DNA of 64,000 bases from Haladaptatus sp. R4. Lineage in GTDB: Archaea; Halobacteriota; Halobacteria; Halobacteriales; Haladaptataceae. The position numbers and the translations under genes are program-made. The DNA lies in NCBI RefSeq assembly GCF_001625445.1, contig NZ_LWHG01000032.1:124001-188000 (forward strand), read 5' to 3'. The notes beneath the pieces were generated by a model. It was not told where the DNA came from. It worked only from the letters and a program-made list of their open reading frames with translations, and did no database searches. This document shows positions 36,768 to 51,306 of the stretch, in pieces; position 1 is the stretch's first letter, and each line of letters begins with the position of its first letter.

Positions 36768-37235
36768 TTACAATCGTTTCGTCATTCGGTGGCGTTTGGT
36801 CACGTAGTCGTCGCGCCGGTAGAGCGACTGAGCGACGCGGTTTTCCGCGTGAACGTCGAGCGAGATGAACTCACACCCTTGCCGTCGGGCCCACGATTCG
36901 GCCCGCGAGAGGAGGGCGGTAGCGATCCCGTGCCGTCGGTGACTTCGGCGGACGAACAGGCCGTCGATGTAGCCCCGCGGCCCGCGGGCGAATACGGGCG
37001 GGGAATCCCGTTTTTCGACCGACACGTAGCCGATCAAGCCGTCGTCGTCCGCGACGAACGTGGCGATGCTCGCGTCGGAAAAACGGTCTTTCACGTACGA
37101 GAAGACGTTCGCCCTGACCCCGTGGTCGGCCAGCGTGTCGAAGTCGTCCATCTCCGCCATCTCGCGGGCGAACGGGACCCAGAGGTCGTCCACGAACCGG
37201 ACGAGTTCCCCCGCTCGCAGTCGTCGAATTCGCAT
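36768..37235 (-). CDS. GNAT-family N-acetyltransferase
   Basis: Intact, 155 residues starting MRIRRLRAGELVRF. Acetyl-CoA binding loop IDGLFVRRSHRRHGIATALLSRAESWA (Q/R-x-x-G-x-G/A pattern) and CEFISLDVHAENRVAQSLYRRDDY. The ATG at 37235 overlaps the TGA of trpS (TGATG), so the two are translationally coupled. Substrate unknown; a link to tRNA charging is only positional. Confidence 0.8.
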   Translation of the reverse strand: MRIRRLRAGELVRFVDDLWVPFAREMAEMDDFDTLADHGVRANVFSYVKDRFSDASIATFVADDDGLIGYVSVEKRDSPPVFARGPRGYIDGLFVRRSHRRHGIATALLSRAESWARRQGCEFISLDVHAENRVAQSLYRRDDYVTKRHRMTKRL

Positions 37236-38341
37236 CAAGTCGCCTCCCCGAACCCGTGTTCGGCGAGGTATCGCTCGACGTCCGGTCGTGCCGCCTCGCG
37301 TTTTTCCTGATGATCACGAAGGAAGGTTTCGAGGCGCTCCTTGGCGATTTGCTTCAGTTCGCCCGAGAGCATCGCGCCGGATTCGTACTTTCGCCGAATT
37401 CGTCCGAGTTCGTCGTCGTCCCGAACGAGGTGGAACGCGAGTAGTTCGAACACCATGTCGTCCTCGACGCTTCCACCCTTCTCGCGGTGTTCCTCGACGC
37501 TGGCGCGACCGCCAGTCTTCGCCGCGTCGATTTTCCGCTTCGCGTCCTCGACGGTATCCGTGAGTGCGATGTAACTCGCCGGGTCGGACGAACTCATCTT
37601 CCCCCCTTGTAGCCCGCGCATGAACCGATGGTACGTACTCGCGGGTTTTACGTACGCGGTCTCGCGGTAGCGCGAGGCGACGTCCCGCGTCAGGCGAACG
37701 TGCGGGTCCTGGTCGATACCGACCGGGACGACCGTCGGTTTCGGCCCGCCGTTCTCGGGTGCCTGCGGCCGGAGAATGTCGGCGTACTGGGTCAGCGCCG
37801 AGGATATCTTTCCGGGTGAGGTCGCGCCGTAGGTCGCCTCGAACTCGTTTTCCGTGATGTACCGCGAGAACAGTTTGCTCCGGGCGAGGTGGTCGTTGCC
37901 CGCCCGCGACTGGAAGTAAAAGTCCGTCCGGTCGAGATCGACCCCCGCCGCGGCGTAGTTGCAGAGATACTCCTCGATCACCAACTCGCGGGCGTCTTCG
38001 AGCGACACGTCGCGCGTCGCGTAGGCTTCGATGTCCGCCGCACAGAGGGTGACCTCGGCACCCATCTCCTGAAACATGCGGACCTGTTCGACCACGGCGA
38101 GGTGGCCGAAGTGGAACACGCCGGAGGGCATGAGGCCGGTCATGACGGCGAACGGGTCACCCCGGTCGCGGGCGTCGAGGACGGTTTCGAGGTCGCGCTG
38201 GCCGAAGACGATGCCGCGCCGGACGAGGCGATTATCGGGAAGACGGTCGGCGAGCGGGGCGATGGGTTCGATGCCGAACCCCTCCATCGTCGCCGAGTAG
38301 TCGGCGATTTCGACGTCGCCCCACGGGTCGATGTCGGTCAT
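37235..38341 (-). CDS. trpS: Tryptophan--tRNA ligase
   Basis: Intact, 368 residues. Class I synthetase signatures: GVFHFGHLAV with HFGH at residues 77-80 (the HIGH motif) and KMSSS at 248-252, plus VPVGIDQDPHVRLTRDVA between them, which is typical of archaeal TrpRS. Joins Trp to its tRNA in the cytoplasm. Forms an operon with the GNAT gene and diverges from the winged-helix gene across a region with an unusual palindrome. Confidence 0.9.
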   Translation of the reverse strand: MTDIDPWGDVEIADYSATMEGFGIEPIAPLADRLPDNRLVRRGIVFGQRDLETVLDARDRGDPFAVMTGLMPSGVFHFGHLAVVEQVRMFQEMGAEVTLCAADIEAYATRDVSLEDARELVIEEYLCNYAAAGVDLDRTDFYFQSRAGNDHLARSKLFSRYITENEFEATYGATSPGKISSALTQYADILRPQAPENGGPKPTVVPVGIDQDPHVRLTRDVASRYRETAYVKPASTYHRFMRGLQGGKMSSSDPASYIALTDTVEDAKRKIDAAKTGGRASVEEHREKGGSVEDDMVFELLAFHLVRDDDELGRIRRKYESGAMLSGELKQIAKERLETFLRDHQEKREAARPDVERYLAEHGFGEAT

Positions 38342-38518
38342 CGGCCATCACCGCCGAGCGAACCGCTGGTGGAGAACGGACTGTCGGTGAAACGATACGA
38401 CAGGATCAGTTGACTATGCCGTGGTCGGCCAAAATCGACCACCGGCAGTAGTGAACGAAGACATGCCGGTTGCTACTCCGTGAGTTGCGGGCAAAAGGGT
38501 TTCGCGGGCGTGAGAGAC

Positions 38519-38550
38519 GGTGACAAACGCGAGTGGTGACAAACGCGAGT
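38519..38550. repeat. Perfect tandem duplication of 16 bases
   Basis: GGTGACAAACGCGAGT occurs twice head to tail (38519-38534, 38535-38550), ten bases before the 30-base palindrome. Confidence 0.95.
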
Positions 38551-38560
38551 TGCCGAGCGA

Positions 38561-38590
38561 GCGATTCGGCCGCCATGGCGGCCGAATCGC
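38561..38590. promoter_or_regulatory. Perfect 30-base palindrome upstream of the winged-helix gene
   Basis: The half-site GCGATTCGGCCGCCA is followed immediately by its exact complement, with no loop base, centred at 38575/38576 and 31 bases before the ATG at 38622. A dyad without a spacer suits binding by a dimeric regulator or a recombinase better than a transcription terminator. It may be the operator of the winged-helix gene (inference). Confidence 0.7.
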
Positions 38591-38621
38591 AGTTGTCCGT
38601 GGCTGTCGTAGGGGAGCCATC

Positions 38622-38843
38622 ATGCCAACCGAGATCAGCGAAAAAGAGATCGTCGCCGCGATTCGAAACGCGCCAGCGCCGGTGGTGAACACGACGTATC
38701 TCGCGGACGAGTTGGCCGTCTCCCGTGAGCAACTCGGCGACCAACTCCGCGAGTTGGTCGCCGATGGCGTCCTCGAACACACGGAAGCGCGCGGCCGAGG
38801 CCACTGCTGGTGGCTCTCGGCCGCGCGCGAGTTGGACGAGTAG
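38622..38843 (+). CDS. Small winged helix-turn-helix protein
   Basis: 73 residues starting MPTEISEKEIVAAIRNAPAP. Helices and wing are clear: VVNTTYLADELAVSREQLGDQLRELVADGVLEHTEARGRGHCWWLSAARELDE, read in three short runs as the H1-H2 turn (TTYLADELAVS), recognition helix (REQLGDQLRELV) and wing ending in WW. Similar small wHTH proteins sense phase or bind operators. ATG at 38622 is preferred over 38520 because the earlier codons cover the palindrome. A PD-(D/E)XK gene follows after 61 bases. Confidence 0.7.
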   Translation: MPTEISEKEIVAAIRNAPAPVVNTTYLADELAVSREQLGDQLRELVADGVLEHTEARGRGHCWWLSAARELDE

Positions 38844-38904
38844 AACGGAATCGAAAGCGAGGACAACACAACGTTCTTGTGGGATTCGTCGTAATTCCAC
38901 TGCC

Positions 38905-40152
38905 ATGGCTAGCGCGGCGAGTGAACTGAGCGAACCGCACGTGCTCGCGCACGCGAAGCGTCACCTGTTTCCGGACGACGGGGCGGGAACGACGTATGCG
39001 GTCGTGGATACGCAGTTCACCTCCGAGCAGTGGCTGGCAGACGGAGCCATCACACCGGAAATAACGGAGACGCTCGCGCCGTTCAATCACGTCTGCATCG
39101 GGACGGGATACCCCGACCTCGTCGGGGTTCGCTCGCTGGACGACGAACTGGTGGCCGTGAACCGGCTCGGGAGTGACCCACCGCTGATAGCGATCGAGGC
39201 CAAGGGATACACGAAATCGGGGACTGTGGATGTCGAGCGCGGGGTCGTACAGGCGTACGACCGGTTGCACGAGGCGAACGTCGCGTACGTCACCGCGCCC
39301 AGCAGCGCGATTTCGGAATCCGCTCGGACGCTCGCCCGCGAGTTGAACGTCGGCGTCCTCGCCGTCGAACCGGGCGGCGCGGTAACGCCGCTCGAACTGC
39401 CCCGGGTCGTGGGCAACCGAACGACCACGGAGGCCGAAGCGATTCGATTTCAAGCGAGCGCCCAAGGCGTCGTGGACGACTCGTTCGGTCTCAATCATCC
39501 GAAGAACTACCTCGGATACCCGCTTGCCTACTACGCCGACGGCTCGACGGAAGAGCTGATGCGGGAAAACAAGGTCGTCCGAGAAATCGACAGTGCGAAA
39601 CGAGGTGCGATAGTGCTCGGACTCGTGAAAAAACGACCAAACGGCATTCGTCTCACCGCCCTCGGACGCGAAGTCGTCCGCTTCGCACTCGGCCGATACG
39701 GATCGGTCGAGCGGGCGCTGAACGAGTTTCAAAATTGGTACCGGAAATCGCGCTGTTTCTACGACCTCGCACCGGAGTGGGGGCTGCTCACCAGGCGAGT
39801 TGTGTTCGACTATCCGGCGACGCAGCTCATCGTGGAAGAATTGCAGCGGTTGCACGAAGATGGCGAGACCTACCCGAATCTCGTTCAGCTGGTCGAATAT
39901 CTGTACGAACTGCATCCCACGTTCACCATCGAGCTGTTCGTCCGCGGAACGGACGACGCGAGAAATCGAGTCCTGGGCCCTGAAGGAGAGCTTCGAATCA
40001 ACGCGCTGACGAACGGCAACGTCTACCACTCCCCGACCGTCTTCCAGTTCAAGGCGATACTGTACCACGCCGGAATCCTGACCGAGCGGGGCGCGGAGCC
40101 GTCGAATCTCGACCCGAGAGCAGATACATGGGCGCTTCGGAACTCGTTGTGA
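38905..40152 (+). CDS. PD-(D/E)XK nuclease-superfamily-like protein
   Basis: Intact, 415 residues. The segment IGTGYPDLVGV (Asp71) - LIAIEAKGYT (Glu98, Lys100) - GVVQAYDRL (Gln116) gives the D-(n)-ExK-(n)-Q pattern of the PD-(D/E)XK fold, as in restriction-type endonucleases and Holliday-junction-like enzymes. A second domain from about residue 190 has a winged-helix-like run (GLVKKRPNGIRLTALGREVV) and helices to the end. No methyltransferase is adjacent, so it is not a standard restriction system. It may cut, nick or only bind DNA. Probably transcribed with the small wHTH gene. Confidence 0.65.
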   Translation: MASAASELSEPHVLAHAKRHLFPDDGAGTTYAVVDTQFTSEQWLADGAITPEITETLAPFNHVCIGTGYPDLVGVRSLDDELVAVNRLGSDPPLIAIEAKGYTKSGTVDVERGVVQAYDRLHEANVAYVTAPSSAISESARTLARELNVGVLAVEPGGAVTPLELPRVVGNRTTTEAEAIRFQASAQGVVDDSFGLNHPKNYLGYPLAYYADGSTEELMRENKVVREIDSAKRGAIVLGLVKKRPNGIRLTALGREVVRFALGRYGSVERALNEFQNWYRKSRCFYDLAPEWGLLTRRVVFDYPATQLIVEELQRLHEDGETYPNLVQLVEYLYELHPTFTIELFVRGTDDARNRVLGPEGELRINALTNGNVYHSPTVFQFKAILYHAGILTERGAEPSNLDPRADTWALRNSL

Positions 40153-51275: not shown

Positions 51276-51306
51276 CCCGAGCACGCGGCGACGCCGCGTG
51301 CTCGGG
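51276..51306. terminator. Strong hairpin between convergent genes
   Basis: Arms of 14 bases, CCCGAGCACGCGGC and its complement, around a GAC loop. It lies 73 bases past the flippase stop and 89 bases before the GH81 stop on the other strand, so it can serve both directions as a terminator or RNA 3' end stabiliser. No T run follows on the plus strand. Confidence 0.65.

Follow-up and report, generated by a model that had tools for sequence, protein, structure and literature searches.

A stretch of 64,000 nucleotides from Haladaptatus sp. R4 (hereafter the window) carries, next to trpS, a tandem 16-mer, a spacer-free 30-base palindrome, a gene for a 73-residue winged-helix (wHTH) protein and a gene for a 415-residue protein with a PD-(D/E)XK pattern. 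The question raised by this locus is whether the four features make up one self-controlled cassette, as a preliminary description had proposed. All four were confirmed in position, and the genome of the window (G000) was compared with those of eight other genus members (G001 to G008). We conclude that the locus probably consists of two independent adjacent units, a genus-specific, putatively autoregulated small winged-helix regulator and a solitary restriction-like or DNA-processing nuclease-fold protein. A tempting false association of palindrome and nuclease as a defence cassette is thereby removed, and two testable objects take its place: a regulator whose conserved site occurs once per genome, and an as yet unnamed family of nuclease-fold proteins that is found in about two thirds of haloarchaea and listed by none of four libraries (Pfam, NCBIfam, PADLOC and PHROGs).

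The palindrome and the small winged-helix gene

The wHTH gene (38622-38843, plus strand) has an ATG start with a GGGG/GGAG Shine-Dalgarno-like sequence immediately 5′, and its divergent neighbour is trpS, encoding tryptophan-tRNA ligase (37235-38341, minus strand), which was found in 9 of 9 genus members examined. The two genes adjoin each other in this orientation in G000, G002, G003, G005, G006 and G008. An AlphaFold2 model of the 73-residue protein (pLDDT 73.5) places helices at residues 7-15, 24-31 and 35-47 and strands at 21-23, 51-56 and 60-65, the H1-S1-H2-H3-S2-S3 order of a winged helix, in agreement with the earlier assignment. Orthologues (54-78% identity) are present in seven of the eight other genus members. 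Like the autoregulated small MarR/ArsR-like winged-helix repressors of haloarchaea, the protein has a winged-helix fold and its gene a symmetric site 30 bp 5′ of the start codon; unlike them, it falls under every Pfam and NCBIfam family cut-off, with no assignment to a named family (MarR, ArsR or GntR), and among the 59 genomes searched its orthologues are confined to the genus, with weak paralogues only elsewhere. Two strong inverted repeats lie within its reading frame (38734-38764 and 38787-38828, with 14- and 13-base arms, respectively), and they are shortened or missing in relatives.

The palindrome (GCGATTCGGCCGCCATGGCGGCCGAATCGC, 38561-38590) has arms of 15 and 15 bases without a spacer. 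The window holds only one other perfect inverted repeat with 15-base arms and a spacer of at most 8 bases, and 100 shuffles gave no match to the palindrome within three mismatches. The six species with adjoining trpS and wHTH genes all have an inverted repeat with perfect arms of 12-16 bases a few tens of bases 5′ of the wHTH start, and the palindrome's conservation upstream of this gene, which the preliminary description had proposed to check, is borne out, down to complementary changes in its arms. Among the nine genus members searched, every site found with the core TTCGGCCG-N6/7-CGGCCGAA stands between trpS and the wHTH gene. There is one such locus per genome in G000, G002, G003, G005 and G008, and there are two in G006, corresponding to a duplicated trpS-wHTH locus. 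Genome-wide searches found no core in G001, G004 and G007, all of which are without the trpS-wHTH adjacency, the wHTH gene being displaced or lost there. These sequence comparisons mark the palindrome as conserved and specific to the small wHTH gene. The view that it is the symmetric element of the small DNA-binding gene itself is thus sustained, with binding as a prediction. A repeated mobile element was considered as an explanation of the palindrome and rejected, since there is one locus per genome.

Several observations stand beside these. The two copies of the trpS-wHTH-palindrome locus in G006 (L141 and L142) share a contig, with about 550 kb between them; the contamination listed for this genome is 16%. 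Similar cores are present in other genomes of the family, and these genomes have no clear wHTH orthologue. The window's other perfect inverted repeat with 15-base arms, which has a 1-base loop (51276-51306), is flanked by the ends of two convergent ORFs and resembles a terminator-type hairpin.

The palindrome could act as a DNA operator or, within the 5′ untranslated region of the wHTH mRNA, as an RNA hairpin, and the pattern of conservation bears on both. Each arm has a core of 8 bp that is invariant in 6 of 6 species, and the flanking and inner positions vary while staying complementary. The invariant core favours a protein half-site; the covarying flanks favour a hairpin, which accounts for the complementary arms no less well than an operator would. 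Five base pairs have changed on both sides, giving a covariation score, modest with six sequences only, of 0.222 that was matched by 0 of 500 shuffles and that collapses once the partner is slid. RNA folding of the region gives z values of -3.4 to -5.5 across all six species, and the Shine-Dalgarno-like sequence between the palindrome and the start codon suggests a leadered mRNA. A hairpin controlling translation or stability is therefore a possibility that we hold tentatively; against it stand the half-site-like invariance of the core amid variable flanks, and the fact that a dimer site would likewise show perfect symmetry. That the palindrome is the predicted operator of the small wHTH protein has, in our estimate, about an even chance. 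Under the operator reading, a dimer of the 73-residue protein would most likely bind both TTCGGCCG half-sites and, once bound, would repress its own transcription and possibly that of trpS.

The tandem 16-mer consists of two perfect abutting copies of GGTGACAAACGCGAGT (38519-38534 and 38535-38550), with the palindrome 10 bases further on. A genome search gave no second occurrence of the full tandem sequence. A single degenerate copy is present in the nearest relative, with a gap in the other aligned genus members, from which we take the tandem to be a recent duplication private to this genome; it therefore offers no evidence of function and was rejected as a functional element. On the trpS side, an inverted repeat, GTGGTCGGCCAAAATCGACCAC (38421-38442), is kept 5′ of trpS in 9 of 9 genus members, with one or two substitutions in some, and even where the wHTH gene is absent. 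In the trpS sense it forms a hairpin, a possible leader or promoter element of trpS. Close matches to it (2 mismatches) elsewhere in the class look scattered.

Fold and likely activity of the 415-residue protein

The gene for the 415-residue protein (38905-40152, plus strand, ATG start) begins 61 bp beyond the wHTH gene on the same strand. The D71-E98xK100-Q116 pattern proposed from the single sequence is borne out by conservation: D71, E98 and K100 show no variation across 50 relatives and Q116 is kept in at least 90%, and the first three align with the same motif in distant relatives. No match to the protein was found in Pfam, NCBIfam, PADLOC or PHROGs, including no PADLOC model at E values up to 1, and a PDB sequence profile search returned nothing, NucS included. 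An AlphaFold2 model built from a 50-sequence alignment (pLDDT 87) has an order of strands and helices that fits the PD-(D/E)XK core. Foldseek gave no match to this model in the PDB at E < 0.001.

Usable structural matches came from VIA-align only, with scores near the level that the tool grades as middling. Residues 9-157 superimpose on NucS (2vld) with Z 8.0 and an rmsd of 2.7 Å over 97 residues, and residues 9-165 (38929-39399), which hold D71, E98, K100 and Q116, match PD-(D/E)XK domains including 2vld, 5gke, 7bdv and 1y88 at Z 7-8, with NucS, Can2, Cdn1 and AF1548 among the matches. Residues 197-282 (39493-39750) match winged helices, and residues 290-415 (39772-40149) weakly match the Orc1 winged-helix domain (Z 5-6). 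The top row, PaqCI, covers most of the model with a large rmsd. The protein as modelled is thus a PD-(D/E)XK domain with two winged-helix-like domains, in keeping with the nuclease fold and further winged-helix-like domain predicted for it earlier.

The type IIS enzyme PaqCI, NucS/EndoMS and Can2/Cdn1 share with the 415-residue protein a PD-(D/E)XK domain with attached winged-helix modules, and as in proteins of this kind D71 and E98-x-K100 sit at the expected strands, with Q116 on the following helix. The protein differs from them in having no sequence similarity, in its middling Z scores, and in that no methyltransferase, CARF or NucS N-terminal domain was seen in it. The PD-(D/E)XK domain would cut DNA picked by the winged-helix domains, in the way of a restriction enzyme that works alone (type IV or type II-like) or of a DNA-processing nuclease.

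Members of the family occur in 193 of 292 sampled near-complete halobacterial genomes and in 61 of 76 genera, a distribution that is wide but patchy. They are mostly single copy and full length, with roughly vertical identities, and no relatives were found in phages. Their copy number, length and identities, together with NucS being the closest compact fold match, would suit a house-keeping DNA repair nuclease of haloarchaea resembling NucS/EndoMS. We regard that reading as somewhat unlikely, given that in one genus searches recovered the gene from only two of nine species, and that the protein has no NucS sequence match, carries extra winged-helix domains and reaches only a middling Z.

Linkage of regulator and nuclease

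Searches of named genomes found 101 relatives of the nuclease, and 80 loci were kept. In 0 of these 80 does the wHTH gene or trpS stand beside the nuclease gene, and ORF clustering across 89 loci found no conserved neighbour. A divergent ORF in 26 loci was considered as a partner and rejected, as in a sample of these loci it proved to occur in a subset only or to be an antisense reading.

The nuclease gene also has a candidate promoter that recurs in the family. In the regions preceding 76 orthologues, A+T content has a sharp maximum at -33 to -25 relative to the start codon, a position that suits a nearly leaderless haloarchaeal promoter; this peak we take to be a TATA-type box. A matrix built from 72 orthologues outside the genus scores highest, 12.0, at position -40 relative to the nuclease gene of the window; the orthologue median is 12.5, and the best scores per 200 bp across the window have a 99th percentile of 11.1. 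Before the wHTH gene the score is at most 3.8. The corresponding box in the window, AACACAACGTTCTTGT (38865-38880, plus strand; family consensus GCCAGAACATTATTGA, about -38 to -23 relative to the start codon), lies between the two genes. The matrix site and the A+T peak thus point to a promoter of the nuclease gene's own, from which it would be transcribed nearly leaderless.

Within the genus, the two genes have had different fates. Directly behind the wHTH gene of G008, an in-frame scar joins nuclease residues 1-26 to about 379-415, and in G001 the nuclease gene has a different location but still faces the MFS gene that other species carry after wHTH. On the strength of this scar and this junction, the order trpS-wHTH-nuclease-MFS is probably ancestral in the genus. 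No intact nuclease copy was found in the six species other than G000, G001 and G008, and the wHTH gene and palindrome persist without an intact nuclease in five congeners (G002, G003, G005, G006 and G008). The nuclease has probably been lost repeatedly within the genus, with the regulator and palindrome mostly retained.

A single self-controlled cassette, with the wHTH protein acting at the palindrome to control the nuclease in one operon in the manner of a restriction controller protein, would account for the short gap and shared strand, and the ancestral adjacency, preserved here, would permit read-through from the wHTH transcript. We nevertheless consider it very unlikely, in view of the five species that keep the wHTH gene and palindrome without an intact nuclease, the nuclease without the wHTH gene in 80 of 80 loci checked, and the nuclease gene's own promoter box. 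C protein-regulated restriction systems likewise place a small HTH gene and an operator-like site before a nuclease gene, but here none of the neighbours identified, whether in the window or at the loci, was recognised as a methyltransferase gene, the nuclease has its own promoter, and the regulator is kept without it; the lasting linkage of regulator, site and nuclease expected of a self-controlled restriction-type cassette was not seen. The grouping of the four features into one unit is hence the part of the preliminary description that did not hold. A search for the pair across Halobacteria, which it had proposed, showed no co-occurrence of the two genes in the 80 loci and an ancestral adjacency within the genus only. 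Absence of co-occurrence in other haloarchaea, which it had named as evidence against a cassette, is what was found, because the nuclease is widespread without the wHTH gene and the wHTH gene and palindrome are kept without an intact nuclease.

Distant relatives in Dpd gene clusters

A cyanobacterial plasmid protein with 26% identity leads to a second branch of the nuclease, which aligns full-length with the family of the 415-residue protein (hhalign probability 99.8 over 359 columns). Three of five distant plasmid relatives, from Allocoleopsis, Natronosalvus and Natronorubrum, are encoded inside clusters for DpdA-type 7-deazaguanine DNA modification (L187:4872-6080, L186:27273-28460 and L168:3831-5021). 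In the Allocoleopsis and Natronorubrum aibiense clusters the relative accompanies DpdA, a DpdJ-like helicase and PLD-type genes, and in that of Natronosalvus rutilus it accompanies DpdA, a large helicase and preQ0-pathway genes. The Halocatena relative is not in a DpdA cluster. The fifth relative, from Natronococcus, is a fragment; its neighbours are hypothetical, Csa3, ATPase and helicase genes, with no DpdA annotated among them. From its sequence and setting, the distant branch is an unnamed component of some Dpd-like systems. Should this link be functional, it would suggest an unstudied nuclease acting on, or together with, modified DNA.

The resemblance to Dpd gene clusters, in which full-length relatives are members in one cyanobacterium and on two haloarchaeal plasmids, does not extend to the window, where the genome has no DpdA and the nuclease gene is solitary, as it is at the orthologue loci examined. 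Six DpdA loci of relatives also held no member of the nuclease family in the DNA examined (on one contig the sequence stopped 2 kb beyond the gene), and so the Dpd link is real for some clusters and not general. Pathways for 7-deazaguanine occur in haloviruses (PMC8651126). With the three plasmid clusters, this could suggest that the 415-residue protein is a modification-dependent (type IV-like) nuclease directed against halovirus 7-deazaguanine DNA, or is otherwise functionally tied to Dpd. We judge this unlikely for the reasons just given, and because the solitary clade was never in a Dpd cluster among the loci read. The broader proposal is quite unlikely: that the protein is the founding member of a family of solitary modification-sensing nucleases, so far undescribed and spread across the haloarchaeal class, with one branch recruited into Dpd clusters, and that it would protect two thirds of haloarchaea from modified viral DNA. 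On a plasmid of Halalkalicoccus jeotgali, a DUF6884 gene (L167:3537-3893) lies directly 5′ of a relative of the nuclease.
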